Made by a program: the position numbers and the translations under genes
Shown: positions 23,001 to 64,000 of the stretch, piece after piece
Numbering within the stretch: position 1 is the first letter of the stretch
Layout of the letters: each line of letters starts with the position of its first letter
The notes under the pieces: generated by a model
Database searches by the model: none
The model's input: only the letters and a program-made list of their open reading frames with translations
Told to the model about the DNA's origin: nothing
DNA from: Cryoendolithus antarcticus
Taxonomy: Eukaryota; Ascomycota; Dothideomycetes; Cladosporiales; Cladosporiaceae
NCBI GenBank assembly: GCA_002077065.1
Contig: NAJO01000067.1
Location: 62,001 to 126,000 of the forward strand
Direction of reading: 5' to 3'
Length of the DNA stretch: 64,000 bases

Positions 23001-23412
23001 CAGCAGTGGCTGGGTCCTGACCAAAGCGGAAGGTCTGCTTCCGCACTCTCTTGGAGGACAAAATGGCCTCCGAGTCCAGTGCTGGTGCATCAGTCATGGC
23101 AGTATCGGGCGTGGATGCTGTGCGGATGGTAGGATTGCTCGGCGCATTTGCGTTCATAGAGGGTGTATTGAGGGTCTGCTGGAGGAGAGAGAACTCGTCA
23201 GCAGACACGGGCGTAGGGAGATCCTCGAGGTCGGTGAGGTCCGCATCATCTTCGCTCGCGTCCGATGCTACCGTGAGACCTGGTGTGGAGCCGGCGTGCG
23301 AGCTTGTCGATGAAGACTGCGTAGCAGCGACATCCTCGAGGTCTATCATGGAATTCCTCTGCGCCGCGAGAATCTCGCGCCTCTCCTGCATGGTCGTGTT
23401 GCTGTCATCCAT
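20053..23412 (-). CDS. AlkB-like 2OG-Fe(II) dioxygenase with Cys-rich modules and basic disordered N-terminus
   Basis: A single frame of 1119 residues. Residues 1-400 are disordered and basic, with repeats of the type APRRKTMPAADG and KRKRGKPS that resemble AT-hook/DNA-tethering segments. A conserved region of unknown fold follows (about 420-570, LYGQLVDGNNTAREYVNANV, AWRYAVLDFFLVAEVWEEYV). Next are two Cys clusters: ICQCCGK...WWCMRGEC (about 600-625) and CPKCKRC...WQCDTPGC (about 680-710). The C-terminus is an AlkB fold: PHDDGEKGLGPEVGTLSLG gives iron ligands His919 and Asp921, YFKHGV gives His1059, and LRYALTVR gives the R-x5-R pair 1068/1074 that binds 2-oxoglutarate in AlkB enzymes. All catalytic residues are intact. 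Likely nuclear and acting on DNA, RNA or chromatin; the substrate is unknown. Confidence 0.8.
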   Translation of the reverse strand: MDDSNTTMQERREILAAQRNSMIDLEDVAATQSSSTSSHAGSTPGLTVASDASEDDADLTDLEDLPTPVSADEFSLLQQTLNTPSMNANAPSNPTIRTASTPDTAMTDAPALDSEAILSSKRVRKQTFRFGQDPATAEFIDHDTSYIIDRYSDADVSDTGRASKRKRGKPSQVTPERKSSKLSKSDAQHKLAAAKTAPTKASRAASAPKTAPRPKLVKAPMAGLKRKRSSTDDDVVVPPLRKVIKQLEDDDASEVSHHSEPETGPSAPALIVPALPTIAGLAQAIMANGNAPAQRKTTSRRKTLPAADGSAPSKPKAAPRRKTMPAADGTMPAKRAYTRRPKTTPAVGVITTEPSGAMENADTEAEVTEQFPIDTTYDDQMDPELLRISRELTSLRPIGERLPPRGQPPAWAPGRSELCETLDYFRKPQGGSYTNGGTLYGQLVDGNNTAREYVNANVMIVRAAGGMKCDEATGKWFQEKSHSMIDTHVKAVLNNKAHENPFPILAGNKHSGMPCNMDAWRYAVLDFFLVAEVWEEYVPRKSGRGEPLKAIKMRYERQNVSEPAWFTSDETDKPDVKLPEGCSMITRICQCCGKDSPQRYLLDWWCMRGECEQFWQRPSGERAPVVHHLDFHPAYLLHRREWKNAIPPFDLAPEPPKVGEISGDTLTAVNARGIVCPKCKRCNSRYKFWKWQCDTPGCGFELEPPHEIVQPAANPHSHSWTSVGSGPGVGRFKAASHIPIKVAHGFGFKAVRYELLPGQYVEVLKSNKSINAQPGGPDDMFRELQERDIGLECRIIRATRPIKKCRKFKKAAANEVSESEDLTEMPEDGEHLNEMTVDANGIVGQRMRGASLNFGMVYKFVGIGATFSFADAPRAIRWTRSYLSWVRRIIIGALGNRVRKDFNELLIIAYMEATGMNPHDDGEKGLGPEVGTLSLGGPADMKWFLKTRYLSQLANDGSFLDEAPLPYELLVASGFGHGKTHVHETRKNYDLRVECYEELQKLKVGEPTTDQTLEFRKQLAERIGGTTKQRQATCVVDVHLTHGDVCFMRGELVQKYFKHGVESLGLLRYALTVRDILRAHLTAAQWPAYGEEPDEILYDGSELRGPGDRDILEWYSALG

Positions 23413-24545
23413 GATGATCGAGGATGAAGAGATCTCAGAGGAAGTGAAGGTTGTCCAAGTCGACGATTGGATGCGCTATGCGCAAAGGCAGTAGAGGCCT
23501 CGAGGCCCAAAGTAGGTGTCTCAAAGGATGTCCAAGGTTGACCAAAGAAGTCCAAGTCCAAAGTTGTCTGTATGGAGGTGGATGAGTGATTCAAGAAGGA
23601 TCCAGAATTCGAGAACTCCCTAGTAATCCAGAGTGGGCCTCAACGGGAGGTCCCGCCGGCGGCAAGCACGATCTGCTAACATGTGCGTGCATGCAGTGAA
23701 AGACGTTTGGCAGCGGCGTGGCGCTGGAAGTGAAGCTCGTGGTGTGGGGTCAGTGGTAAGTTGTGATATATAGGTGGGCTCTGCGCCGGCTCGAAAATAA
23801 CTTTCCGGGACAGTGGAGTGAGGAGTAGAGAAACCGTGAACGTGATTCGAGATCGTTTGTGCAAGACGCCGTGGATCATGAGGCGGTAGTACGGAGGTCG
23901 TGGTGGTTGTAAAGAGTGAGGTATGGCCGCCTCGAGGACATGAAGTCGGCTTCCTGGGTGGGCTAGCTCGTACCAGCCATAGCTAAGCGGGGCGCCACAT
24001 TGACTTTAACCGTACCATGCTCTGGTGGCCTCACTGATACCATAGTTGAAGGCAGACGAAGTGTTATGTTACCGCGCCTCACTGGGTGTGCTTACAACAC
24101 AATCTCTTGTATGCCGACCACGCGAGCTGTCAATGGAAGGTAGGAGATATAGGAGGACAAGGGTACTTAGACTGTCTAAGGCTGCCCCAGCAATCAGCTC
24201 CATCGCCAACAATGTCCTGATACCTGGCTGGCATGCCGTTGCGTTGTATTCACGTCTTTCGCCTGGTGTCCAAAATCCTGCTTCCGCGCGAGCGCCTGTG
24301 GCAGACAGAGCTGCTCGCTCCCCATTCGTCATCTCCAGTGCACATCGACAGCAGGTTTAGACATTACGCAGTCTACTGACCACTCATCAAACCCAATGCG
24401 ATTCGTGAAGCAGTCGAATGTGCCATGATCGACTCAGTACACAGTATCCATGCCATGTCGCTAGTCATAGGAACGAAGGAAGAAGATGCGCCACTGCGCT
24501 TCATTGTGAATCCTCCCCTCCGGTAAGCATCGCTGCCGGGAACAC
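23413..24545. other. Intergenic, about 1.1 kb
   Basis: Promoter side of the AlkB-like gene and 3' side of the Red1-like gene. A TATA-like GATATATAGG lies near 23765. No supported gene. Confidence 0.5.
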
Positions 24546-48282: not shown

Positions 48283-49560
48283 CTAACCTGGACCGTAGAG
48301 GTCCTCCTCTTCCGGCTCTTCCCCACGATGCCTCGCTTCTCCTTCATCGTCATCATCGTCTGCATCCTGGTCCTCGTCATCATTATCGTCATCCTCTTCA
48401 TCTTCAAGGCTAGCTGCTCGCTGATGATACATGGCTAAGAGCTTGCTCTTGACTTCATCTTCGGTGAAGCCTTTCTCGAGCAAGGCTGCCTTCCAGCTTT
48501 GCATCGACCCAGAAGAGAAGGCAGATGGACTTGTCGCACTCGACTCCCGCGTGATGATATGGTCTGAATGTTTGCGCCATACGTTGTCGAACTGGTGCAG
48601 CAAGGGCCGCAAGGATCGTTCATTGACCTTGCCAAAGGACTTGGCCTTCACGTAATGCTGTATAGTGTCCACCTTGCCAAAGTCAAGACGCGACATCGAA
48701 TCTAGCTTGGTACTTTTGTCATCTGGATCCACACAAATTGATTCGGGTCGCATTGGTGCCTCTCTACGAGCTGGATACTCCTCTGGGCGAGGGTGAGGAC
48801 ACGTCCTACCAGTGTAAACAATGGCATGATCGGACTTGATGACTCCCGGCTTACTGACGCCTCGTCCGTTGTAAGTGGTGATAGGAAGGACACTGCAGTA
48901 CTTGTCCGAGGTACGGATGACAACAAAGCGCCGGACTTTGGTATAGAATCGTTCCCCATACGCACCACGATAGACGCCGGCATCGGGTAAGAGACTGGTT
49001 ATGTGAGAATTGTTCTCACCTGCAGTCTCCGGCCAGAGCGTCATGAACACCCTTCCTTCGGTAAAGAATTTGGCAGGGCGCTTCTTATAGCTCGGATCCA
49101 GACGCTCGGTGTCTCCATCGGTCTCCAAAAGCGTCATGTGGCCCGGGACACCGAGTTCACGCAGATGGGGATCCAGCTGTGCTCCAGGCGGCCCCCGCGC
49201 TGTCCTTGCAAGTGTGCCCAAGCGTGGATCACCCCGGTCGACAAAGCGGGGGTCTTGCGGCCGTGGATTGAGGTTCATAGCGTTCATGCTCGAAGCCAGA
49301 TCCGACGTTGTGCTCCGTCCACCAGGAAACCTCGGTATGACATCTTCGGACGCGCGAGACTGAGCCGGACGAGCAGCATACACGCCCGGAGAATCTGCAC
49401 CTTCCCAGACTGCTGCCTGTAGCAGTGAGTGGGTTCTGGGAATGGTCGGTGGTCTTGGAAATCGCCCACCATCGCGCTTGACTATCAGATCTCTGCTTTG
49501 CACATAGATGAAATCGCCACCGATGGCTTCACTGTATTGCCATGGCCGTGGGTCAGCCAT
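48283..49560 (-). CDS. DUF6590-type protein, array copy A (intron-free)
   Basis: A protein of 425 residues. Residues 5-40 carry the array's N-terminal motif (W-x-YS...FIYVQSRDLIV). A disordered Pro/Arg linker follows. The DUF6590-like domain spans about 154-330: LDPSYKKRPAKFFTEGRVFM-TLWPE, YGERFYTKVRRFVVI, YCSVLPITTYNGRGVSKPG, ICVDPDD...LDSMSRLDFGKVDTIQHYVKAK, LLHQFDNVW. The tail has a short helical element SWKAALLEKGFTEDEVKSKLL followed by a very acidic run ending EEDLYGPG. It aligns with copies B, C and D but lacks the three introns of B and C. It is divergent from the plus-strand gene at 50310. The function of DUF6590 is unknown; the assignment rests on remembered family motifs. Confidence 0.8.
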   Translation of the reverse strand: MADPRPWQYSEAIGGDFIYVQSRDLIVKRDGGRFPRPPTIPRTHSLLQAAVWEGADSPGVYAARPAQSRASEDVIPRFPGGRSTTSDLASSMNAMNLNPRPQDPRFVDRGDPRLGTLARTARGPPGAQLDPHLRELGVPGHMTLLETDGDTERLDPSYKKRPAKFFTEGRVFMTLWPETAGENNSHITSLLPDAGVYRGAYGERFYTKVRRFVVIRTSDKYCSVLPITTYNGRGVSKPGVIKSDHAIVYTGRTCPHPRPEEYPARREAPMRPESICVDPDDKSTKLDSMSRLDFGKVDTIQHYVKAKSFGKVNERSLRPLLHQFDNVWRKHSDHIITRESSATSPSAFSSGSMQSWKAALLEKGFTEDEVKSKLLAMYHQRAASLEDEEDDDNDDEDQDADDDDDEGEARHRGEEPEEEDLYGPG

Positions 49561-50309
49561 CCCGAGTGGCTATCATGAGTCACTGAGTTGAGTCAGGCAA
49601 GGATGTAGGGCGTCACACGCTCACCTTTATATCAGATGCGGCTCAATTATGCAGATCGGACTAACCTCATACCGAGCGGAGGGGCGTGCAGCCACCGTTC
49701 AAAGTAACGGCAACATCCTAAAGTGAACAGTCCTTGCGATGCAAGACGTATACATAGAAATCGGCAGGCGTAGTCTGGCCGAGATAACAACGTCAACATA
49801 CAGTATGTAGAGCCCCCACGCTGCGGGTAAGATGCTGGCAAAAGTCGTGGGCTGCAAAAGTACGCCCCACTATGATACATGCTACGCCTCTCCGCTGCAT
49901 GGACAGACGTTAAGGAGCACACACATAAGCAGCATACATAACAACGGCGGCAGCGAGAGTTGCCTTCTCATTTCCTCCACGCGCAGAAATCCAAGTACTT
50001 CTGGGTCCCCACGTCACATGGAAGCCTTACTCCCGCAAGCTGCCACCTCTCCCGGTCCTTGGCTCCATTGCTTCACCCGACTCCAGTGCTGCGAGATTTT
50101 TCGGTGCTGTTGCGACCGCGGCTGGATCGTGTGTGTAAGGGGTATGACTCAGGACGGTGACAAGTTCTCGATTGCTTGCACTATGCAACGTAAGGTCTGG
50201 TGCATGTCGTGGCGTTAGGGTCGTCGGGCTCTCATGCGCAGAGCGTGACCATGTTATACACGCTCAGGCAGGCAAGACAATCATTGCTGAAGAAAGTGTG
50301 CGCGCGAAA
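49561..50309. promoter_or_regulatory. Divergent intergenic region, pair A (749 bp)
   Basis: Separates head-to-head starts of the DUF6590 copy A and its partner. The size matches pair C (748 bp) and is near pair B (828 bp). No shared regulatory word was proven by eye. Confidence 0.4.
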
Positions 50310-51824
50310 ATGGCCGACAGTCCACCAGATTTTAGCAATGGTCTACGAGAAGTCAATAGGGCGAAGCTCATTGACGACATTGCACGTCTGTCTCAGAGTG
50401 GAGGCTCTGCGCATGACCTGCGAACATCACAATTGCGTCGAATCTGCGATATCTTCCAGCGGCGTCATCGAAGACTGTCTAGGGCACGAGAGCTGGAACT
50501 CTCCCTTGGAACGGAGCTTCAGTATCAGTGGCAAATATGCGCAGACTACCGACGACACTACGACGAATCGACGGAAAAGTTCATGCATCAGGCTATGTTG
50601 GTCGTAGGGAAGACCGGACGCAAGACATTGGCGACAAAGTTGGGGAAAACGCATGTCCAAGTTCAAGCAGATCAAATGATGTTGACTGCACAGTCCGTGA
50701 GAACAAAGGAACTCGAAATTCTCCGATCAGAGCAGTCAAGTAAGATCAAGAAGCTCGAATCAGTGCTCGATAAGGCTGTAAGCAGCTTGTCAGCGTTTCT
50801 CAACGACGAGTTCGATACTGTCCACACTGAATATGATGATGATGGTTCCGTTTCAAGCATAGAGCCACCCTCAAGTATGTCAAACGTGGAGAATCCATTG
50901 CTGGAGGATTACTACGACAAGACAGGCAACATCGCTATTATGCGTGAGAGATTGAGCGAAGTTTATAGCGAGTATGTCGATGAGCGTGCACAGAGGATCT
51001 TTCGTGCTGATCAAGACCAAATTTTGGAAAATACCGATGAGCAGTTCGATGCATCATACCAAGTCGCGATCCAAAACGCTCAAGAGAGTATTGAGAACGC
51101 AATCGACGCCCGGCAGGAAGCACTGGAAAAGTGCCGGGCCGCTGGCGTCGAGATACCACCACCTAAGCCTGTATCTGAGTCGTCAGCGGTAGTTAGTGGA
51201 GTGTCTGGAATGCCGCTCACGGGAACCTGGTCCGGAGTTACTCGTAGCCCACCCCGTAGCCAGGCTCCCAAGACTGAGCTTGTCAGCCCGGCACCACCAA
51301 CGATTGCTACGGGTCACATGCTCCCCGATGGTACAGCAGGACCTGACGCCAAGGTAGGCAGCTATATCGAAGACAGCAGCATCGAGAAGTGGATACGTGA
51401 AATTCCAGACCTCATGCCTTCAGGGGTTGGAATCCACCGTAATGCTACGGATGCTACAGCGCCAGTCATCATGTCATTGGATGATGACCTTGGTGCAGCG
51501 TCGGAAGGTCGTTGGCGTGGCAACTCACTGACGGCAGAATCTATTGATCTGGAGACAGCAGAGCTAGCCAAGGTTGGGAGCGATGACTTTTCAGCCATGA
51601 ACACAACGCCGCCTGTTCCGACACAGGCGATCTCTGATCCCAGTGCGCGTCGCCAGTCAGCAACTGATAGGCATTCGTGGAGCGAGCATAGACAGCCGGA
51701 GGACCGTGGGTGCCGCGACGATGGTGATGTCTGCGATTCTCCGGACGCGCACGTCTGCAATACAGACCAAGTCGACCTCGTGATCAGTCAAGCTCCGCCG
51801 CCCGACTTGCCAGATCTCAGCTAA
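50310..51824 (+). CDS. Helical partner protein, array copy A (unnamed family)
   Basis: The start is placed at MADSPPDFSNG (the frame extends upstream to 50157 without coding character); 504 residues. A helical head (about 51-88) contains RRHRRLSRARELELSL and WQICADYRRHYDEST. A long coiled-coil-like segment follows (KELEILRSEQSSKIKKLES). The family block at about 195-285 reads NPLLEDYYDKTGNIAIMRERL...DQDQILENTDEQFDASY...KCRAAGVEIP. The C-terminal half is disordered, with a small motif SIEKWIREIPDLMP. Paralogues at 55879 and 60903 share the block. No known domain was recognised, and no signal peptide or membrane helix, so it is probably intracellular. It is divergent from the DUF6590 copy A gene. 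Confidence 0.72.
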   Translation: MADSPPDFSNGLREVNRAKLIDDIARLSQSGGSAHDLRTSQLRRICDIFQRRHRRLSRARELELSLGTELQYQWQICADYRRHYDESTEKFMHQAMLVVGKTGRKTLATKLGKTHVQVQADQMMLTAQSVRTKELEILRSEQSSKIKKLESVLDKAVSSLSAFLNDEFDTVHTEYDDDGSVSSIEPPSSMSNVENPLLEDYYDKTGNIAIMRERLSEVYSEYVDERAQRIFRADQDQILENTDEQFDASYQVAIQNAQESIENAIDARQEALEKCRAAGVEIPPPKPVSESSAVVSGVSGMPLTGTWSGVTRSPPRSQAPKTELVSPAPPTIATGHMLPDGTAGPDAKVGSYIEDSSIEKWIREIPDLMPSGVGIHRNATDATAPVIMSLDDDLGAASEGRWRGNSLTAESIDLETAELAKVGSDDFSAMNTTPPVPTQAISDPSARRQSATDRHSWSEHRQPEDRGCRDDGDVCDSPDAHVCNTDQVDLVISQAPPPDLPDLS

Positions 51825-52739
51825 TGTTCGCAGTCGCCCTCAGCTTGCGACACAGCAGGTAGGTAGATGTTGGCGTCGCCCCTGCTACCCAAGTGCTCAA
51901 CTCGGCTTGTCCCCATGCCGCGGCAATGCGGACTCGCAGAACCTGCTTTAGCCTCATAAAAAAGAGAGTTTGCGTATGACCCTGCTTGGTTTTTCCGTGC
52001 ATGTGTGATGTGAGCCACCCCCTGATCATGAATTGAATATCTGCGGCTGACACCACACAGCTGTTTGCGGGAGGGAACTGACCTTGTGATGGATATCCTC
52101 ACTACTCGATGAGCGGTGGAGTAGCGGCAACAGCGAAGGTTCAAAACCAAGATTGGTAGCCAGTCCGAATCGCTGGCTCATCATATCTCAGGGGACCAGG
52201 GTGCGGGTTCAGCATGGGTTAAGTTGTTGTCCGCTGCTGTCAGACATTTGCAGCGTGAGAGAGCTGTCAAGCGCATAGGCTGATCGGCACTCGAGTGAGA
52301 CACTAGCAGTAGTCACAACATCCATCGTTACGCGGTGGGACGAGATGTATGCTCTTACCCTGTGGTATCACGGGATTAGGTATAGACGTCGGACATGTAA
52401 CATTGCGTTTGCTCTCTGGTGAATGTAGCCCCGAGGCCACAGTTTCCTCGATACGCGCGAGATTATGACATGGTAGGAAACGAAAACTACGCAATGTATC
52501 TTACTATCAATTGACCGAACCCCCGGCCACGCTATCTCCAACGCTGTATTGCTGTCCCTTGCTGCCGTAGTATGTTGACACCTGCCCAGCGTCACACATA
52601 GTGAACGCCAAACGTGGCCAGTATAAGTTGCGGAGAAGCCTAAAATCATCGCATGCTTCCCGCCGTCGCGAGAGAGCTGCGTAGGTCCCTCATACGTCAA
52701 TCTCGTAAGTCGTGAGTAACAGAAAATGTTGTAAATCCG
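51825..52739. other. Intergenic spacer between array pairs A and B (915 bp)
   Basis: Convergent 3' region between the partner gene of pair A and the DUF6590 gene of pair B. No open frame with family motifs was seen. Confidence 0.45.
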
Positions 52740-55050
52740 TCAATTCTGTCTGCCCTTCCCTTTGGACCCAGCTGCGTTGCTGTCTGCCGATGTCGAGGCA
52801 CTGACTGCATCACGCACATGCTGTAGCGCGACTTCCAGACTGAGACCACGATCAACAGCGCGAGCTACAGCCTTCGCTTCGCCGAGCGAGATGCCTCCTT
52901 TCCTCAACATATTGATGACAAGCTGAGCCGCGTTTGAACTTAGTCCATCATCCATCAGATTTCGAAACGCGGTAGCTTCTTTGGGCTGCCAACCGTTCGC
53001 CGCCAAGTCGGTGTACGAAGGACTAGAGCTCCCTTGCGGTGCGGGAGGAACTTCAGTCCTGCAGGCCGAGGGACCGGACTCGGACTGGCCTATCCGAGGC
53101 CGCTGATCAGACATGTTAGATGCTCTGTGTGCGCGAATAGTGGACTCTTGGAGTTGAAAAGCTGCAGGAGCTGTTCGGCTGCTCATCGCTGCAACCCCTT
53201 GGGGCAGTGAGGCTCCAGTCATTTCCCTTCGTGGGCGTATGATGTCTTGCGGCTGGGACATTGAGAGACGTCGAGTCTGAAGGCCCTGCTGTAGCGTTGC
53301 CAGATTTTCAGGTGCGATCGTGGAGCGTACACCGAGTGTTTCTGCGCTACCACGAGGCGCTTCCTGTCGGCGCGAGGCAGAAGCCTGTGAACGCTCGCGA
53401 GCGTTCGATACCATCTTGGTCAGCAGCGTATTCACTATGGCTTTAGCTTCAGACGTAGCTGCACTTGTCGAAAGTCCTTGGTCTTTGAGCTTCTGGATGG
53501 CTCCGAGAAGAACATCTTTCAATCGCTGCTGTTCATCACGGGTGAGTTCCGCAAGTTGCGACGGAGTGCCTTGCACTTCCTCGTCCTGTGGGCCGTCATT
53601 GCTTCCAGTGGTACGAGCGGACTCATGCCGTTGAGGCCGACTTCCACGGGCCACCTCTGCGAACTTGGTAGCTTCTAGATGTCGCAGTACATTCGGGGGT
53701 TGAGTACTGCGCGATGCTCTGTCACTCGATGGTCGACCTGGAGAACTGAGAGGAGGATGTTCTGAAGACTTCTCTGACGTGGCATCAACCATTGACACAA
53801 CTTGGCTATGTCTCAGGATCTTGCTCGTGAACACTGCCTGGAACTGCGACACCAGCGCCTCGTGACAATCGCGATTGACCATGCCGAGAGGCTTTACTTT
53901 CAAATTATGCTCCACCGTGTAGACGGTGCCGTAGTGGATCCGCGATGCCGAATGAAGCTCGCTTCGGGGATCTCTCGGATCATCAGGATCAACGCGTATG
54001 GGACGGGGTAAGAGTCTCGATTCCCCAGACGGTCTGCGCGGAGTTGGAGTGCCTGTATATATTATTCCGATCTCAGCTTGGTCCAGGCGTTCTCGAGCGC
54101 CGCGGCCACCGAATGTGCGGACAGGTCTTCAACGGTCAGTCAGCTTGTATAATTACGCAGACGCCACGCTGGGGTCTTACAGGGCAGTACAGCTCTGTGG
54201 GCCAGTATTGATAACTACGAAACGTCGTACATCAGAGTAAACACGTTCGCCAGCGAATTTGCCGGGTAGAGTGACTTTCTGTGTGACTACAGACCCGCGC
54301 GCTGAGTTGTTCAACGATTCGCTGGCCGGTTCGCTCCAAAGAGTTAAAAAGACCTGAGAGGTATGAGTATGTGAAACATTGGCTGAAGTCATTGAGACAC
54401 TGACCCGGCCGATCACAAAAAAGGCCCGGGGTTGTTTGCGCTTCCGAAAGCCTGCCAGGACCAGTCAGCAATATCATTGACACCTGGGACAGAAGAGTTG
54501 ACGAACTTGGGTCCAGCACTTCTTGGTCACCGGGGGTCTCGAGCAGTTGTCGCTCGGGCGGTACTCGATTATGCTGACCTCGATTCCCAGCGTTTCGGAA
54601 TCCGGATCTGGCGACTCGCGATCTGACCAGAGTCTTCGCATTGTAGCCATCCACGAAAGGTGAAATTCCAAGACCTGCTTGTAGGTCTTCGCGGCGTGGC
54701 TGGCGTGGTGGCGGCCCTGCTCGATTCTGTATGGGTCGTGGCCGCACGGGCAGCGTCGTAGCGGCAGCAGAGGCTTGAGCGTGATCAGATGTTATCTCGC
54801 GCAAGGGCCGCGGTGCGGAGGCCAGATACGGGGCGTCTGCTCTGGGAGGATTCTCAACGGTAGCAGATGGAATTTGGGGGCGATTGCTCGTCCTTGGAAC
54901 ATCTGATCCAGTCACCCGTGTGGACAGACTCGGTACTAAGCTCTGCAGCACTCTGCCATCTTCTGTGATGTCTAGACCTCGTGAGTGATCGTGATAATAG
55001 TAGGCATTCACTTGCGGGCTGTAGAGCCATGTTCTCTGTGAGTTCGGCAT
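52740..55050 (-). CDS. DUF6590-type protein, array copy B (four exons)
   Basis: Exons are 55050-54507, 54451-54405 (47 bp), 54353-54181 and 54126-52740, joined in phases 1, 0 and 2; 716 residues. The introns (55, 51 and 54 bp) restore the domain that single frames break: EVLDPSFRKRKQPRAFFVIGR, VFLTLWSEP, GERVYSDVRRFVVI, CTALPVRTFGGRG, IRVDPDDP, IHYGTVYTVEHNLKVKPLG, FQAVF. The N-terminus shows W-x-YS...YYYHDHSRGLDITEDGR. The tail is about 340 residues longer than the domain needs, Ser/Arg/Gln-rich, with two helical pieces (DEQQRLKDVLLGAIQKLKD; LVINMLRKGGISLGEAKAVA) that resemble the tails of copies A, C and D. The exon pattern is the same as in copy C. Confidence 0.8.
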
Positions 55051-55878
55051 TTGCCTGCCTCAAGGGTCTCGACCGCTTTTGTGTCTCGAAGCTGCGAGTC
55101 AGTGACAACTGAAGGCTCGCCTCATAATTTGTCTGGTTCGGCATGGCCAAACCGACAGGTCGAGCATCACGGAGCTGATATGGAGCTGAAGATTCAGCCT
55201 CATGGAAACACAACGCGGTAGAAAGACAGGGCATGTGGCATTCCTCGTGACAGCAATGAATCTGAACCCTAGCAGATGTGCCGCAGTAGCGCTGTGACCG
55301 ACTCATCTACTGTTGATTGCCCCACACTCCGCGACCAATCTGGCCAATATGACCTGTCCCTTGGACATCATTGCTCGATGCGATTGGCGGTTAGGCGCGG
55401 GCGAGAGAAACATGAACGTGGGCGGCACGGCACCAGCTCTAATGCTCCACGACATTCGGCCACGAGTGTGTAGACACAGCAAGCTTGCGGGAGCTGCATA
55501 CAAGTTTCGCGGGTGCACCTTTCTGCTTCAGAAATGGTTACTTGCATGGCATGTGGAACGCAGGCTGCTACCGCGGACATTGCTTGGTCGACAGCGCCGT
55601 TGCTAGCTGTCTGATTACCGAGCGTGTCCCGATGACAAGCCTCACTCCGGTACTCCGGGAAATTGCACAGTGAGCACGGATCGTAAAGCGAGTTTGGGAC
55701 TATCCTACGGTCATACCGCGGATGAAGCCGGTACGGACACAAATGCCAGACGTAGCCGGGTTCACGTTGCTGCAAAGGCGACGTCTCGACTGCTCGGTCT
55801 CCATGTCGACGCAGCGCATCTGCGACAGGCTTCACGACAGTATTGTCCAGCTGACCGGAACTACCTACGACTCCATAC
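55051..55878. promoter_or_regulatory. Divergent intergenic region, pair B (828 bp)
   Basis: Lies between head-to-head starts of the DUF6590 copy B gene and its partner. Short frames at 55276-56038 on the plus strand and 55368-55922 on the minus strand have no family motif. Confidence 0.4.
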
Positions 55879-57270
55879 ATGGCGAAAGTGTCCGACTCAA
55901 TATTGGAGCCTCTCGTGTGCAACCGTGATCAGTACAACGCCTCACTTGATGAAATCAATTCCCGCTCGGCGTCAGCTCATCGACAAATCTTGGAATTGGC
56001 GGAGCAATCTGGTCCAGCGGTGGCAATCGAAGGACTAGACGTAATTCTTTCGACCAGGCAACCAGCCACTAAAGGGTTGCAACGCGCAGCGCATACTGTC
56101 AATCGGAGGAGACGACGTCTTTTGGCATATCGTGCCGACGTGGGCTTGCTACGTGCGCAGGCAGCGGTGTCTTGGGAGCGTTATTGTCGCTACCGGGACT
56201 ACTATCTGGAGTCGAGCAGTGCATACGAGAGCACGATGCAATATAGCCCGTTCCGAGCGCCGACACTTGACAGGCATCTTTATGCGCTGCGCTCCCGACT
56301 CGAGCACGACCGCACAAGGCTTGAGACCCAGTATCACGAGGCTTCAGACCTACAACGTCATCTTTCCAACCTTGAGACTGACCTGTACGAGGTGACGACG
56401 AAATTCATGGACGCTGCGTTGGATCTCGCGCAACTTACTTTAGGAGGCACGGCACCAGCTGATAATACCACATACGAGCCTACACTTGAGCTTTCAGCTC
56501 CGAGCACAATGTCGTCGCTTACAAGACTGGACCCTTTGCTGGCGCAATACTATGATCGAGCTGGTGATGTCAGCATTATGGCGGAGCGAATGGGTGATCT
56601 CCAGGAGCAACACTATCACGAGATTGCCACGCGAGGTCTGCGGGAGGATCAGGCAGAAGTGCTGAGTATCGCGGACGCAGACTTCGACGACAACTACGAG
56701 CGCGAGCACAGAATCTTGCAAACCGAGCTTGACATTGCGGCAGGTGAAGCCGATGAGCTTCGTGCGAGGTGCGAAGCAGCAGGCCTCGACATTAGTGCAG
56801 GCCTTCGCAATACCGAAGATTCCGATACGGATGTCGAGGATTCGGACCTCAAGCCTAGCAACGAACTGATCGCTCCTACTCCGTCAGGTCCGACCCATGA
56901 CGTTGAAGGCATGCTACATCTGCTTGACATCAAGGACGCCGCAGAACAGGTCCGCACTGCGAGTTCCGTCCTGCGCGCACCGCTGAAGCCCTCTGAAAGC
57001 GACGACCGTACGGTGATAAGTGTAGATGACTGGATCGCAAGTGTAACCTCCAGCTTGAACGTCGATGAGACAAATTACACTGGCTTTCCGGGAGATCCGA
57101 GGTCCTTGCCGGCGAGATCACGGAACCCTTCCCTCAGCACCCTTGGCACTCCATTAGCTCGACGGCATTCCGAAACCGATTTGCTTGACGAAGTATTGCA
57201 TGGAGCAGGCTATGGGGCAAGCGGAACATCCCCACCGAAACCCCCGGACAGGTCATCCCTTGCAATATGA
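55879..57270 (+). CDS. Helical partner protein, array copy B (unnamed family)
   Basis: An intron-free protein of 463 residues. The head (about 77-113) reads RRRRRLLAYRADVGLLRAQ then SWERYCRYRDYYLESS, aligning with copy A. A coiled-coil-like stretch (about 125-190) has EHDRTRLETQYHEASDLQRH. The family block at about 218-315 reads DPLLAQYYDRAGDVSIMAER, REDQAEVLSIADADFDDNYE and LRARCEAAGLDISAGLR. An acidic spacer, the motif ISVDDWIASVTSSLN and a tail LARRHSETDLLDEVL follow, matching SARRQSATDRHSWSE in copy A. No enzyme motif was seen. It is divergent from DUF6590 copy B. Confidence 0.72.
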   Translation: MAKVSDSILEPLVCNRDQYNASLDEINSRSASAHRQILELAEQSGPAVAIEGLDVILSTRQPATKGLQRAAHTVNRRRRRLLAYRADVGLLRAQAAVSWERYCRYRDYYLESSSAYESTMQYSPFRAPTLDRHLYALRSRLEHDRTRLETQYHEASDLQRHLSNLETDLYEVTTKFMDAALDLAQLTLGGTAPADNTTYEPTLELSAPSTMSSLTRLDPLLAQYYDRAGDVSIMAERMGDLQEQHYHEIATRGLREDQAEVLSIADADFDDNYEREHRILQTELDIAAGEADELRARCEAAGLDISAGLRNTEDSDTDVEDSDLKPSNELIAPTPSGPTHDVEGMLHLLDIKDAAEQVRTASSVLRAPLKPSESDDRTVISVDDWIASVTSSLNVDETNYTGFPGDPRSLPARSRNPSLSTLGTPLARRHSETDLLDEVLHGAGYGASGTSPPKPPDRSSLAI

Positions 57271-58220
57271 CGGTCGTTAACCACATACAGCGAGCCTTGA
57301 AATAGCCCTTACCTTGCGTTATTGGGAGACATGGGGCATAGTATGCTTCCCACAACATTACGGCTTACACCCGCTATTGACCAGCATCGACTGCATCGTT
57401 TGTCACTCTGATCGCCTTCTACCCACGAATGTATATTTGGTCATCACGCATTCGCATCGCTGCGCTGTCGGGCGGTGCCAGATGTCTGAACATGACCAAC
57501 ACCGTCGTTGATTAGAGAAATTTGAGCATGGTGCGGCATCGCCTACGCTCTTGCGACTGCAAGATCAATGATTTGAAAGGTCCGTACAGCGATATGGAGT
57601 AGGATCTATTCAGCCAACATTAATGTTGACGTGCGCTACATCCTCGTGCCAGTTTGATGCGATCGCACGGCGAATGATCCGCGCAACACAGGATATCAGC
57701 GTTGGCTGGCGTGAATCCCCACGTCATATACGACCGCTGTGTATCAATTTGTGTAACAATGCGCTTACCGCTAGTCCGGCACATCTAGCAGGAGGGCAAA
57801 GTTTCGAAGGCTTTCGTCGGTGAGTCTACCTTCCTATCACCCGTATCATGATTACTAATGCTCATTCCCGTCAGACATTCGTCCATGGCACACCGACGCA
57901 GCTAATCAGTAGCACAGTCAATCTCTAGTAGCTGTTGAAGGAATCAAAAAGCTATCGACTATGGAAGATAGCTATGTAACACATTTCCTGCCGCACGAAC
58001 GCACATCCGTCTGAGTCTGCTCTCCGCCATGATCTTGCCCCCAAAAGACAGATGACTGTCTTCAAGTAGGCGCGTATTGTGGTAGCATTTTCGAGCCGCC
58101 AGAAGTACGAGGTATCAAATCGTTGCGTCGTAAAGTCGTAAGTGAGCAATGTAGTCAAACCAGATTCCGCGATTCTGCTCCCACTGCAGCTGATGATGAT
58201 CTAGGCCCTGGCAACGCCCA
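57271..58220. other. Intergenic spacer between array pairs B and C (950 bp)
   Basis: Convergent 3' region, close in size to the A-B spacer (915 bp). No gene or mobile-element remnant was recognised. Confidence 0.45.
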
Positions 58221-60154
58221 TCAGCTCTGCCGCCCTCCCCCTCGACCAGTGCTCTGCTTCCGACGTGCTGCAGCCTCAGCCAGGACTTGTCGTGCCTCAA
58301 TGTTAGTGTAACCGCGTGCCATGAGCGCATCGATTGCGATCTGTAGTGCAGCAGTCCGAGACCGTTGCGGAGAGTCCGCAGTGGCGCCACTACCACTGCC
58401 ACTGCGCCTTTCTTCATCGTTGCCCAGGCCATCGTCGCCCTGGTCATCGTCGCCCCGGTCATCGTCGCCCCGGCCATCGTCGCCCCGGCCATCGTCGCCC
58501 TGGTCATCGTCGCCCCGGTCATCGTCGCCCCGGCCATCGTCGCCCCGGCCATCGTCGCCCCGGTCATCGTCGCCCCGGATCGCTTCATGGCTCTCATGCT
58601 CCTGCCCAGTCGTGGCACGTTGCGAAGCTGCTTCTACCCGGTTAGCTACGCCTCGTCGCGCCCTACGATCTGCTTCGCCCTCGCTAAATCCCCGAGCTAG
58701 CAGCGTATTCTTCAGCCGATGGTACAGGGATGTCGCCGCTCGACGGGCAGCCTCGGCTGAGCTCTCTGCAGCGTCGCTGCCAGCACCAGATCCACGGCCA
58801 GATCTCTGATCGGACCGGCCATCAGTGTTCGAAGGATTCCTCCTCAGTCTACCGACTACAGCGCTAGCCTGCTCCATGGCGGCACGTTGTCGCTCGGTGA
58901 GCTCTCGTGGTTGTCGTTGCTGCATGACATCGCTACCTCGGCGCGCCGTAGACTCCCCAGACACACGGCTTTGTTGTGGAGTCACAGATCGCGGAATAGT
59001 CGCAACGATAGGATTAGCACGAGGAACTCCCACATGACTGACCCAGACGTTGTGAAATTGCGTCAGAAGCGGTTGCAGCGACCTGTCATGCACCAAGCCA
59101 AATGGCTTGACTTTAATGTTGTGCTCGATCGTGTAGACCTTACCGTAGTGAATCAGAGACTCAGGGTCGAGTTTGTCTGTAGGAATGTCGACGTTGATGC
59201 GAATAGGATGCTCCAGCAAATCGGGCGCACGTGAAGCACCGGCCGGTACAGACTTCCCTGTGAAGACTACGCCATGCTCAGAGGCATCAATGTGATCCTT
59301 ATTTGAGCCTTGGTGGTTGTACGTCAAGATGGATCTATGGCCAGATATCATCAGTGGTCGCGGCCGAGTGACAGCCTTGTGTACCAAAGAGATTGGTCGA
59401 CTTACAGTGCGCTGCAGCTTCTGTCACCGGCTCGGATGACCACAAACCGTCGGACCTTGGAGTATACTTTCTCGTTGTGGCGGCCCGGGATTATACCACC
59501 GGTGTGCAAGGTCGTAACGAAACTATTAGCGCCTGCTGGCTGAGCCCACAGGACGAGGAAGACCTGCAGTGTTTAGCGAAGTTCATCGAGATGGGTCGTG
59601 CCTTTTCTGAAGGTCCATACCCTGCCTGGGATGAAAAACTTGTTGCCTTGTGGCCGCAAGCGATAATCTACATGGCCACATTAGCGGAGACTGTGAATTT
59701 TGTAATATTGTAAATTCTCACCCCGGTCCAGGAACTCTGAATCTTCCGTGTTGCCAGTCGCAACCAGCTTTGCATGTGCCCTGTATCCGTTATCGTATAG
59801 TCCAGGTTCCGTAATATCTTCCGTTGGCTCGAATTTGATGGCAGACTGGATTCGCTTTTGTCGATCAATCCCTCGGTGAACGGCTGAATCATGCTCCGAT
59901 CTTGGAGTGGACAGGGAAATCCTGTTCAATCTCTCTGACAAGCTGGGGTCCTTGCTAGTAGTGTACTTCGGGCTTGCACTGAGTCCTGGATGGTCGGCCT
60001 CATCACGCTCAGGCGCTGGCATTGAACGAGGCTCCGACAGTGCTGAAACTGGGAGTCGTACTCTGTCTTCGGTGATGATGACATCGGGTCGTCCGGTGTG
60101 TTGGTACCATTTACCCAGTCGACCACTCCAGATCCAGCCATTGCGATCTGCCAT
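58221..60154 (-). CDS. DUF6590-type protein, array copy C (four exons)
   Basis: Exons are 60154-59722, 59667-59621 (47 bp), 59563-59406 and 59334-58221; phases 1, 0 and 2, exactly as in copy B; 583 residues. The N-terminus is W-x-WSGRLGKWYQHTGRPDVIITEDR. The spliced domain (about 142-310) reads FLDRDYRLRPQGNKFFIPGR, VFLVLWAQPAGAN, EKVYSKVRRFVVI, CSALSILTYNHQGSN, ESLIHYGKVYTIEHNIKVKP, LLTQFHNVW. The tail contains a helical piece LYHRLKNTLLARGFSEGEAD, an eleven-unit GDD(D/G)(R/Q) repeat, and a terminal helix AALQIAIDALMARGYTNIEA followed by a Gly/Arg end. That last helix matches the end of copy D. No function is known. Confidence 0.8.
58415..58579. repeat. Coding minisatellite, 11 units of 15 bp with a 60-bp higher-order repeat
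   Basis: The unit CATCGTCGCCCCGG(C/T) is repeated head to tail. The 60 bp at 58441-58500 are repeated exactly at 58501-58560, so four-unit blocks have duplicated recently. On the minus strand it encodes acidic pentapeptides GDDDR, GDDGR and GDDDQ in the tail of DUF6590 copy C. Because 15 is divisible by three, copy-number change keeps the frame. Confidence 0.92.
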
Positions 60155-60902
60155 ACTGAATCATTGGGGCCTGACGCGGTTGTATCTGCAGAGAAAGAGC
60201 GATTGGAAGTGACACGAGCAGACTTCCGATACTTGTGCTACCAACACCCCAATCTATACTGCGGCTCTGCGGAAGGTGGAGGACAACCTGGAAGCTAGGA
60301 AGGTGAAGGTGGTGTGCCAATGCAGTCATTTAGGCGGGACGAGACTGTCCGCTGTGTCTCGACGTCGCAAATGGGAGCAGAGCTTGAGATAACGTCTGGA
60401 GGAGAGTCCACTTGCCACGCGGGAGATGTCGCTACCGGCAGGGCAAAGCTCATGCTGTGTTCCGTTGGCCCTCGGCAAGCACCTATGGCGAGGTAAGGAG
60501 TACATATATCGAAGAGCAACAAGCTATCTGCCGAGCCGCCAGTGAGCTTGTGACTGCTACACAATGTACTCTGTAACAGTGAAACATGTGATACGCTGCG
60601 AGAGCGCGTCATCAAGCCAGTAGATGTGATTGGGTAACACCGCGTCCGCGCGACTCTATTCGGTCCGCGTGAACTGAAGCTGTTGGCAGCGATCCGCCGT
60701 GAAAGCCTACCCGACATCTGGGTGCCAGCCTGCCAGGTGACTGGAGGAGCATCATCGGAGTCCGTTGTGCACTGACCAGGTTCGGGATATGAGGCTTACT
60801 TTGCTGCACAGTGCAGCTGCTATCCTTGGTCAAGCTGTGTGCAGACCATCTGCTGTCGCGTTCATACACCTGCTGTTTCGATGAGGCGGCTGCGTATCGA
60901 AG
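60155..60902. promoter_or_regulatory. Divergent intergenic region, pair C (748 bp)
   Basis: Lies between head-to-head starts of DUF6590 copy C and its partner. The length is nearly equal to that of pair A. A short plus-strand frame at 60314-60496 has no motif. Confidence 0.4.
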
Positions 60903-62486
60903 ATGGCTCCAATACTGACATCTGGTCAAGACTTCAAAGCAGAGCAAGCGTCCAGATATGCCGGCAACGTGCCCAGTCCACCAGACCCGCGCGTTGTGGC
61001 CCCTCGCGATCAAGCCTCGTCCGCTGCTCTCCGGGATATCAGCATGAGCGAACCACTGTTCCCTGTACCTCATGGATCCGCACCGAGTCGACAAGTCGAT
61101 CAGTCGTCGTCTCAGATCAACTCGCCAACGAGAAAACGGCGCCCTTCGCTTCTCACAGGTACCGACCGTATGCGCGAGCTCACAGAGGTCCTGGAGGATT
61201 TGGAACGGCAACATAATGCGATTGTGGTGGGCGCTTCTGCGGCACCTGATACTCATAGCGAGACATTGAGCCCAGTAGTCGCTCTCGCGCCTCCACTCCA
61301 AGTACTGAGGCAGCGTGAAGCACGCTTCATTCGAGGTGCTCGTCGATTCCTAGACCTCATCCAGGCACCGATACTTCGCGACCTCCTGGGAAAGGCCGTC
61401 CCGCTGCGGGCAGGATCTGATATTGGCACCATGAGCACGTTGGAACACGGTCTTGCGTATGATCTCAAGTCCTCCGAGTCTCGCACTTTACCACCACTTC
61501 TTGAATTGTATTACGATGAGGCTGGTGAAGTCAAGCTGCAAGGAGAATCACTGGTGAATTTGGACTATTGGTACACCGAGGAAGTGTCAGTGCGAATGTT
61601 GCAGGAGGATCAGGGTCTTGAAGTCCCCGTGCCAGACGACGTATTCCATGCAGAATATCTACACAAGCGCGCTCTCATCGAAGTTGCTCTTGATCGCCAT
61701 ATTGATGAGGCTGAGCGCCTACGCACGCAGTGTATTGCTGCGGGCTTGGATCTGAACGCGGGCATGCGTGTCTATGAAGACAGTGAAGGGGACCTCTCGG
61801 AGGTCTTGGTGGAGTATCACGAAGACGACGTGCACTCTCTTTCGGATCCCGGCCCTCTCATACAGCCGCTGGAAGTTGGCTCCAGCGAGCGTCTGCGCAC
61901 GGGTGGACTTACTCCAGCTGCTCGAAGCATACTAGGCTTGGCTCGCATGAATGAACATGTCTCTCGATGGATTGTTGACGTTGAGACGCCGGCAGATGAG
62001 TCCTCACAACAGTTGCTTCTGCAGCACGTTGAGATCGTTGACGACGCCAACGAGCCGCGATCAATGGGAATGCAGTCGGACAATGTGGCTCTGCAGCCGA
62101 CCGTACGGCACAATCCCGTAGGATTAAGTGGACAGCAACCCATTCAATATGACCACGTCGGGGTCAATTGTGGGGTCACTGATCTGTTGCAAAACGTAGT
62201 AGCATCGATCGACGGGACAGTGGACTCGGCGTGGGTCGACATAAGTAAGGAAGAGGTAGCAGAAGCCCTTGAACGACTAGAAGGGCTGGATCTGGCTACA
62301 GCGCCATTTCCTCAACAAGAGGCTCGCACGAGCCGGCGAGCGCGTGATTCTTGGGGTCAAGACACCAAGGACACGAATTCTACAATGACATTCAAAAATC
62401 GCTGGAGTGTACTACTAGACGACACTCTGGCGAACGCTCGAGCGTGGATGGCCAAGTTCCTGACTGCTGCCCCAGTGACACCTTGA
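60903..62486 (+). CDS. Helical partner protein, array copy C (unnamed family, head region diverged)
   Basis: An intron-free protein of 527 residues. The long helical head seen in copies A and B is missing or strongly diverged; instead there is a disordered N-terminus, a basic patch SPTRKRRPSLL and a shorter helix RMRELTEVLEDLERQHNAI. The family block is clear at about 196-290: LPPLLELYYDEAGEVKLQGE, LQEDQGLEVPVPDDVFHAEY, ERLRTQCIAAGLDLNAGMR. HVSRWIVDVETPADES matches the W-I-x-x-[VI] motif of the other copies. The extra tail (about 400-527) includes helix SKEEVAEALERLEGLD. No known domain. It is divergent from DUF6590 copy C. Confidence 0.7.
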   Translation: MAPILTSGQDFKAEQASRYAGNVPSPPDPRVVAPRDQASSAALRDISMSEPLFPVPHGSAPSRQVDQSSSQINSPTRKRRPSLLTGTDRMRELTEVLEDLERQHNAIVVGASAAPDTHSETLSPVVALAPPLQVLRQREARFIRGARRFLDLIQAPILRDLLGKAVPLRAGSDIGTMSTLEHGLAYDLKSSESRTLPPLLELYYDEAGEVKLQGESLVNLDYWYTEEVSVRMLQEDQGLEVPVPDDVFHAEYLHKRALIEVALDRHIDEAERLRTQCIAAGLDLNAGMRVYEDSEGDLSEVLVEYHEDDVHSLSDPGPLIQPLEVGSSERLRTGGLTPAARSILGLARMNEHVSRWIVDVETPADESSQQLLLQHVEIVDDANEPRSMGMQSDNVALQPTVRHNPVGLSGQQPIQYDHVGVNCGVTDLLQNVVASIDGTVDSAWVDISKEEVAEALERLEGLDLATAPFPQQEARTSRRARDSWGQDTKDTNSTMTFKNRWSVLLDDTLANARAWMAKFLTAAPVTP

Positions 62487-63686
62487 GTACGCCATTACGT
62501 CAATTGGCAGTCATACTTTGCCCCAGCTGAGCGCAGATGGATTGGCTATCTTTCCGATTGCGGTCATGTCCCTGTTTACGGACTGTTTCCTTGTTATACG
62601 TGAAAATTCATAGTCTCGGTACGCACTGAGGCTATTCGGTATGATAGCTAAGTCTGGCCAAGTCATGGCCAGCAGACACTCGCTCACACACCTAGCTATG
62701 TATCTGAACGTCATCGCCTGATTTCCAGGCGCACACGCACAGAATATATCAGCTGACATACATACATTGCCTGATTCTTGCACGCCAGATTCCTGCAGAT
62801 GTTCTAGCGCTTTGGCATTGCAACTGCTTGAGACTGAACCGCACGCCTATACATGTTATGGACGCAATACCGGATCTCCGAACACAGCTAGTGTCACGCT
62901 GTAACAGGTTGCCTTGGTGGCGTCGCCACAACGAGCTACCCCGGCTCCTTCAACCGTTAGAGTGAGGCACCCATATAACACAAGTCTGAAATTCACTGTA
63001 CGTCAAGACTGATGCGTCTGCGAGTCCATGACAACACGCGTCGGGACAAGGCAAGCGGGTGTTGACCAGGGTTCGGTACCACACAACCTTTTATTTCATC
63101 TAGTAGCATAAGCATCTATCCTTACGCAGCATTGACTTCCTCCATAGTCAAGTGCCCTTCGATGTGGAGCCGACACTATCGCCGTGGCTCGACAGCGTAC
63201 TTGCATGCTGATGGCGCACGTGGCCGGGATGCCGCATATGCAGCTTTTCACCGGTGCGAGTGACTCTACCTTCTAGTAAGATGAGGAGACAGAGCGAGCT
63301 ATTGTTACACGGATAGGGTAATTTCGTCTCTCGGTACGGTTGCCGTGGGATGTAGATCTGTACCTTAGTCCATCGGGCCAGCCTCGACATTGATGACCTG
63401 TAGACCAATGGGATTGGCATATTCTGTAGGTGCATCATCGCCGTACGATGACACAGATGATTGCTGTAGAGCAGTGGATACATGCGTGGCCACAAAGAAT
63501 CATTCCCCTTTCCAATCAGGCTCGCGAGCGAAAGGTTGTGTTAGGCTGAAATGTTGTAACGTGCAAGTCTTGCCGGATCGTCGTGTCTGTACATTACGCA
63601 AAGGCAGGAGTACAATTTAAACGTGAATCTACACGTCAAACCAGCAAAGTCGCCGTGAAGAATGACCACACCTCCGCGGAGCAAGC
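62487..63686. other. Intergenic spacer between pair C and copy D (1.2 kb)
   Basis: Convergent 3' region of the partner C gene and DUF6590 copy D. Small minus-strand frames at 62511-62931 and 63148-63495 carry no motif. Confidence 0.45.
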
Positions 63687-64000
63687 TTAGCCTCTTTTCC
63701 GATCTTTACGAACATGCGACGCTCGGCCCAGTATAGCCACTGCTTCCTGTCGTGTGTATCCAGCCCGCCGCAACGCAGTGATAGCTGTCTCGACAGCGTT
63801 CGCAGTCGACTTTGATTCTGGCCCATCGCCGCGGGCGGCCAAACCTGAGTGCAAGTTTGGTGTCGACTGACTTATCTCAAGCGCTGCGTTATCGTCATCT
63901 GAATCGGACTCCGACTCACTTGCTGAGGGTCCTGAATCTACGTCGCTCCGCTCTTCTTCATCGACCGCGGCCAGGTGCAGATCCCTGATCGAGTTGGTGA
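63687..64000 (-). CDS. DUF6590-type array copy D, C-terminal tail only (cut by window edge)
   Basis: The reverse strand is open from the right edge to a TAA at 63689-63687. It reads an acidic Ser/Asp/Glu stretch (ERSDVDSGPSASESESDSDD), then AVETAITALRRAGYTRQEAV and a basic end HVRKDRKRG. This matches the end of copy C (AALQIAIDALMARGYTNIEA then a basic/Gly end) in position, strand and pattern, so it is taken as the tail of a fourth DUF6590-type gene. The domain itself lies beyond the window, so the assignment depends on tail similarity and the array's geometry. Confidence 0.6.
   Translation of the reverse strand, partial: TNSIRDLHLAAVDEEERSDVDSGPSASESESDSDDDNAALEISQSTPNLHSGLAARGDGPESKSTANAVETAITALRRAGYTRQEAVAILGRASHVRKDRKRG

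Follow-up and report, generated by a model that had tools for sequence, protein, structure and literature searches.

DUF6590 (PF20233) is a fungal protein family of unassigned function, and a PMC search found no paper naming either DUF6590 or PF20233. Here we analyse an array of six DUF6590 genes in Cryoendolithus antarcticus, three of which stand head to head with a gene for a long helical protein of a second family. The window, that is, the whole stretch of DNA analysed, is 64,000 nucleotides long (positions 62001-126000 of contig NAJO01000067.1, here C114), and the array runs past its right end. Every minus-strand gene of the array belongs to DUF6590 over the curated cut-off; what sets the array apart within the family is its six-gene extent, its private partner, and one fusion. 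It looks like an undescribed two-part system.

The closest described systems are toxins and incompatibility loci. The predicted fold of DUF6590 residues ~160-335 is like that of MazF/PemK and CcdB, and an Arg at a strand start and a Thr after the next strand resemble, by eye, as conserved residues, the arrangement of Arg28 and Thr51, both required for the RNase activity of Klebsiella MazF (PMC8086154, excerpt). The array differs from these toxins in that no sequence relation is detectable, the DUF6590 proteins are multi-domain eukaryotic proteins of 425-708 amino acids (aa) with introns in their genes, and the partner is a long helical protein that is not MazE-like; the likeness is one of prediction. 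Type II toxin-antitoxin genes form a co-transcribed operon, whereas here the two genes of each of the five complete pairs point away from each other. In type II systems the antitoxin also neutralises the toxin by binding it, for which the fused sixth gene would be indirect evidence in this array. The het-B locus of Podospora anserina (PMC10890737, excerpt) also has two adjacent genes of unlike families with strong divergence between haplotypes, but it encodes a HET/TIR-like domain and a PII-like partner and its incompatibility is proven, whereas the divergence described here lies between duplicated contigs of one strain and is known from sequence alone. Like polymorphic toxin systems (PMC3482391, excerpt), the array recombines modules (an N-terminal module, DUF6590, the helical half, and C-terminal helical repeats), but no secretion or toxin-processing domain was seen in it. 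The same source credits fungi with at least 13 toxin domains of bacterial origin; MazF, PemK and CcdB are not named in the portion of its text searched. Among the part of the literature matches surveyed by title and abstract opening, for MazF/PemK in fungi or eukaryotes and for toxin-antitoxin systems in fungi, no such family is described. The MazF/CcdB fold predicted for DUF6590 would be new, and it is invisible to sequence profiles. We tentatively propose that the array is a fast-evolving locus of recognition or conflict, encoding MazF-fold effectors and a dedicated partner that holds them.

Head-to-head DUF6590 and partner genes

A PF20233 profile search of the assembly (46,965,068 bases in 149 contigs) gave 21 rows, exons counted apart, every one over the 27-bit curated cut-off. 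On C114 they make six genes at C114:110598-131339, which we number m1 to m6 along the array; the sequence directly beyond the window, C114:126001 onward, is called L009. A second array, on contig C90, lies in the opposite orientation and has five DUF6590 genes, m1 and m3-m6, and five further matches fall outside the arrays on C46, C125, C68 and C77 (two). The genome paper (PMC5502844, excerpt) gives this strain, then named Rachicladosporium antarcticum CCFEE 5527, 47.4 Mb and 18,781 genes, and strain CCFEE 5018 18,892 genes. Because of the gene number and the syntenic C90 array, we infer that the C. antarcticus genome is doubled.

The original prediction placed three head-to-head modules in the window, at 48283-51824, 52740-57270 and 58221-62486, and these boundaries proved exact. 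In the first, the m1 DUF6590 gene (48283-49560, minus strand; intronless, 425 aa; 164.7 bits, E 2e-48) is separated by 749 bp (49561-50309), a presumed shared promoter, from its helical partner (50310-51824, plus strand; 504 aa). The m2 DUF6590 gene (52740-55050, minus strand; four exons, 708 aa; 83.5 bits), which has no C90 counterpart, faces its partner (55879-57270, plus strand; 463 aa) across 828 bp (55051-55878). The m3 DUF6590 gene (58221-60154, minus strand; four exons, 583 aa; 90.0 bits) faces its own (60903-62486, plus strand; 527 aa) across 748 bp (60155-60902). These spacers are measured between predicted start codons, as are those of the two complete C90 pairs (794 and 760 bp); the C90 partners occupy the same places, beside m1, m2 and m3. 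The five spacers share no 7- to 10-mer, and the three 8-mers that recur in at least four of them (shuffle maximum, 1) are not enough to define a shared promoter site.

The tail of a fourth module had also been taken as part of a pair, but the m4 DUF6590 gene (63687-64000, minus strand, continuing in L009 to about C114:127.3 kb) has no partner. Beyond the window the array continues with m5, likewise partnerless, and then m6 (L009:3783-5393 plus an upstream exon; B0A48_17660), whose protein also includes a helical half.

The m2 and m3 DUF6590 genes are not single open reading frames (ORFs) but spliced genes. Each is interrupted at three corresponding positions by GT-AG introns 51-79 nt long, and introns occur at the same three places in C90 m3, C90 m4 and C114 m4. 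In all 10 aligned C114/C90 gene pairs (nine array genes and one flank gene) the third codon position is the least conserved. The ratio of nonsynonymous to synonymous divergence (dN/dS) is below 1 in each of the eight pairs for which the NG86 method could compute dS, the other two being saturated. From the matching introns, codon-position conservation and dN/dS we conclude that the array genes are real.

The three plus-strand partners of the window form one family, by alignment and by phmmer cross-matches: the m1 partner finds those of m2 (E 2.5e-15) and m3 (E 1.1e-4), and the m2 partner finds those of m3 (E 1.9e-16) and m1 (E 9.7e-16). Invariant residues of their core include P196, L198, Y201, Y202, G206, R229, D234, Q235, D243, F246, Y250, C275 and A278; the interior of the core tree does not resolve, several nodes having supports of 41-53. 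The m1 partner is modelled as long helices at 34-100, 105-170, 211-240 and 243-277 with a disordered C-terminal half, at a mean predicted local distance difference test (pLDDT) score of 56, confident only in the helices of ~34-170 and in part of 211-277.

This family occurs only in the arrays. When the 47-Mb genome was searched with the fused half and each of the three window partners, the best candidates being scored, six stand-alone and two fused loci came up at E<=0.01, all inside the two DUF6590 arrays; the next-best loci, outside them, had E 0.062 (three stops in the frame), 0.153 (a frame with two), 1.43 and 1.77. A six-partner alignment matched three proteins at E<=0.001 among the best 7,998 database candidates scored: the window's own, B0A51_03269 of Rachicladosporium sp. 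CCFEE 5018, and LTR95_001283 of Oleoguttula sp. CCFEE 5521.

Two longer partner homologues, P0002 (658 aa) and P0003 (719 aa), run past the helical domain. On C90 the corresponding C-terminal extension is an ORF severed from the partner by stops (L013:8404-8907, minus strand), and in the window a candidate decayed remnant of it at 51838-51987 (plus strand) gives weak tblastn matches to P0003 (E 0.001) and P0002 (E 0.16). We do not claim a DUF6590-like half in the P0002/P0003 extension: Pfam found nothing there, and hhalign aligned 20 columns at a score of 22.9, against 20.2 for the best of 100 shuffles.

The original prediction inferred old duplication of the modules, with selection to keep both partners together. 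The duplication is borne out by the DUF6590 tree, in which the m1 genes form a clade with 98% support and m2, m3, m4 and m6 one with 99%; the position of C114 m1 differs between two DUF6590 trees (supports 84 and 71). The linkage holds in a looser sense than was claimed. Three independent signs make the link between the two families well supported: partner loci were found only inside the arrays, the locus tags of the m1 pair are consecutive in both other strains where the partner was found (B0A51_03268/03269 and LTR95_001284/001283, adjacency being read from the tags), and the m6 DUF6590 protein carries a partner-like half. The close homologues of the m1 DUF6590 protein are B0A51_03268, LTR95_001284 and B0A48_15772, the last on C90 as B0A48_17660 is on C114. 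The ITS (internal transcribed spacer) sequence of CCFEE 5018 is 98.6% identical to that of R. monterosanum (spelt monterosium in PMC5502844, excerpt), since transferred to Cryoendolithus (PMC10739867, excerpt); we therefore speak of two other strains rather than of genera.

Strict co-retention fails. C90 keeps the m2 partner without the m2 DUF6590 gene: in the gap between the C90 m2 and m1 partners, tblastn with the C114 m2 DUF6590 protein finds only m1, m3, m4 and m6, and the best of 64 ORFs there reaches E 0.07 against the DUF6590 profile. The DUF6590 genes of m4, m5, C46, C125, C77 and C68 are unpaired; within 10 kb around each of the C46, C125, C77 and C68 matches, the partner core profile scores E 0.9 at best. 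It had further been said that the pairing would be undermined if the partner family occurred as often without a DUF6590 neighbour as with one. In this genome five of the six stand-alone partners have a head-to-head DUF6590 gene, and the sixth lies inside the array.

The fused sixth gene encodes a single 697-aa protein with PF20233 at 115-254 (E 3.5e-19) and the helical half from about residue 390. As a protein query this half finds four proteins, two from C. antarcticus and two from Oleoguttula (LTR95_001276 and LTR95_010919); LTR95_001276 lies on a contig of 42,971 bases, the same size as that of LTR95_001283/001284. As a single query in the genome it found only itself and the C90 copy. Profile comparison of the fused half with the partner gave E 3.7e-4 (probability 36%) with two fused sequences, and a score of 37.1 with four (E 6.3e-4, probability 28%), against a maximum of 26.0 in 200 seven-column-block shuffles and 13.3 for the reversed profile. 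In a search of 1,019 sequences of both regions, reported at E<=1, the stand-alone core profile (8 sequences) found its own six ORFs and then fused copies only, at E 3.5e-4 to 0.48. The fused half is likely a distant homologue of the partner domain.

These observations bear on the simplest alternative, that the two genes are neighbours sharing a promoter, copied together in tandem, whose products do not interact. Divergent genes co-duplicate by default, and the C90 m2 partner persists without its DUF6590 gene; but this account leaves unexplained that the sixth gene unites DUF6590 with a partner-like half, in two species, and that genome searches never found the partner away from DUF6590. We consider it unlikely.

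Predicted fold and signature residues of DUF6590

The DUF6590 domain is predicted to take the MazF/CcdB (PemK-like) fold: in each of two structure comparisons, all 50 PDB matches listed were to MazF/CcdB toxins. The AlphaFold model of the m1 protein has pLDDT mostly of 82-97 in its core and below 50 in the loop at 179-194, and divides into a small N-terminal beta module, the MazF-like domain (~160-335), a short C-terminal helical hairpin and an acidic tail. Ahead of DUF6590, the proteins of m1-m4, m6 and several homologues from the database have an N-terminal stretch of some 40 aa (W-x-Y/W-S ... DG), which the m1 model renders as four short strands (pLDDT 85-95). This stretch may resemble WW or OCRE modules.

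Sequence methods do not recover the likeness to MazF. The PF02452 (MazF/PemK) profile has no match at E<=10 in the C. antarcticus genome and matches in three of 14 control genomes, and hhalign of DUF6590 with K-12 MazF and ChpB scores no better than shuffles. The DUF6590 sequence profile gave ten PDB matches, none of them MazF, several of the alignments shown being acidic low-complexity tails.

In a 24-sequence alignment R210, R211, F212, V213, P226, I227, T229, Y230, K237 and H245 are invariant, giving a signature of the form RRF...PI-x-T-Y; the K and H positions (K237 and H245) vary in m2, m3 and m4. In a set of 25 copies that takes in all array modules, 19 of the 21 stand-alone members and none of the four fused ones retain RRF in register; the two m5 copies have RAL, and the fused copies HGL or FGL. 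The Thr at the fourth place of PIxTY follows the same distribution (19/21 stand-alone, with Ser in m5; 0/4 fused). By eye, we would guess that the DUF6590 Arg and Thr are the counterparts of MazF Arg28 and Thr51.

A bolder form of our proposal, which we rate as rather improbable, would make DUF6590 a eukaryotic RNA-cleaving branch of MazF/PemK, each copy restrained by its head-to-head helical antidote: an RNA cutter plus guard at a self/non-self or anti-parasite locus of rock-dwelling Dothideomycetes, in which the fused copy, lacking the signature, would serve as a built-in inhibitor. Less probable again is a true self-maintaining poison-antidote pair descended from a bacterial mazEF-like module. 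The predicted fold would suit such a pair, and in the only pair that is broken, it is the putative toxin that is gone while the putative antidote remains, a loss that a cell could survive. Against it, no sequence link to MazF is detected, the window partner has no MazE/AbrB-type Pfam match, the paired genes are divergent rather than in an operon, and the DUF6590 genes of m4, m5, C46, C125, C77 and C68 exist partnerless.

Divergence between the two arrays

The C114 and C90 arrays differ far more than their surroundings. Protein identity is 43-58% for the partners (48.5% for m2, 58.4% for m3), 59-89% for DUF6590 of m1 and m3-m5 (63.8% for m3) and 52% for the m6 exon, against 94% for the neighbouring helicase gene. 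NG86 dS is 1.0-2.1 for the partners, 1.7 for m3 DUF6590, 3.3 for gene 7, which adjoins the array, and saturated for m1 DUF6590 and m6; m4 and m5 reach only 0.84 and 0.96, and flank ORFs, a set that includes some antisense ORFs, lie mostly at 0.3-1.0. As DNA, the array aligns to C90 over 43% of its length at 71.9% identity, and window positions 1-48000 over 89% at 84.5%; the identical-base fraction is 0.306 in the array and at least 0.674 (mean 0.722) in left-flank windows of equal length. Five of six array spacers align over 0-7% of their length (the m1 spacer over none) and the m3 spacer over ~55%, compared with 60-100% for three sampled flank spacers, although two or three of the array spacers cannot align because they border the lost m2 DUF6590 gene. 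The arrays are a sharp divergence island, spacers included.

Could the island be an effect of assembly, hybridisation or hidden paralogy, the contigs retaining different old tandem copies, with no recognition or conflict involved? Tandem arrays turn over through unequal exchange, the m2 DUF6590 gene is missing on C90, synteny breaks just right of the array, and redundant contigs were removed at 95% identity (PMC5502844, excerpt). But m1, m3, m4, m5, m6 and gene 7 have identical order and orientation in both arrays, and we regard this origin as very improbable. Each m1 copy (C114 and C90) is more similar to its CCFEE 5018 counterpart than to the other copy, in DUF6590 (66.8 and 62.9 versus 59.0%) and in the partner (56.7 and 45.5 versus 43.0%). 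A reading as trans-species polymorphism is not used here, the pattern being expected also if the doubling predates the species split.

DUF6590 and its private helical family stand head to head over 748-828 bp, have been co-duplicated more than once, and keep their neighbourhood in relatives. The MazF-like fold, the private partner, the signature-less fusion and the divergence island together lead us to the effector-and-partner proposal made above. The DUF6590 protein would act on RNA or another MazF-type target; the divergently encoded partner, probably a long helical hairpin with a conserved core, would bind it and restrain or steer it; and the fused copy may be a non-catalytic regulator or decoy in the same complex. 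The system may serve recognition or conflict, whether self/non-self or anti-parasite, since divergence across the locus and its spacers far exceeds that of the flanks. Among the roles first suggested for the pairs (recognition, toxin/antidote, allorecognition, or effector/chaperone), the predicted fold and the island lean towards toxin/antidote or recognition.

The main rival is an ordinary cellular complex of a non-catalytic MazF-like barrel, which would bind RNA or protein, with the helical protein as a structural subunit; the divergence would reflect weak constraint, with neither toxin nor recognition involved. Several points favour it: DUF6590 occurs partnerless in other fungi and at five further places here, dN/dS is well under 1, a fold by itself says nothing of function, and a Pfam scan of eight window ORFs at E<=1 gave no HET, NACHT or other known cell-death domain. 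Weak constraint does not, however, explain why most array spacers fail to align while flank spacers do, nor why dS in most array genes starts at 1.0 and reaches saturation when flank values are mostly 0.3-1.0. We judge this rival somewhat unlikely.

If the effector-and-partner proposal is true, a functionless fungal family gains a fold and a testable activity, and there would be a eukaryotic two-gene conflict system with a MazF-type effector. The array is a natural test set: its proteins can be combined as cognate or non-cognate pairs, several effectors and one partner are orphans, and a fusion lacks the conserved residues.

Neighbouring features

Within the C-terminal part of the m3 DUF6590 gene, an in-frame 15-bp tandem repeat of 10.9 copies (58415-58578, minus strand) encodes a GDDDR-type repeat; the translated C90 m3 gene has no such repeat. 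Gene 7 (L009:6695-7753, minus strand; L012:1430-2497, plus strand) has repeat-like helical stretches, one of which blastp matches to the C-terminal end of m2 DUF6590 (E 4e-4), and apparently lacks a DUF6590 domain. Right of the array, C114/C90 synteny is lost past 73.1 kb (window coordinate); near 81 kb it returns with the orientation reversed.

A fast-evolving gene at 20071-23475 (minus strand) forms a second divergence island, smaller than the array, with 38% C114/C90 identity, dN 0.58, and dS reaching 1.6; window bases 20-22 kb have zero alignment to C90. The C-terminal part of its product matches a 2-oxoglutarate/Fe(II) (2OG-Fe(II)) oxygenase domain (PF13532, E 3.2e-8).

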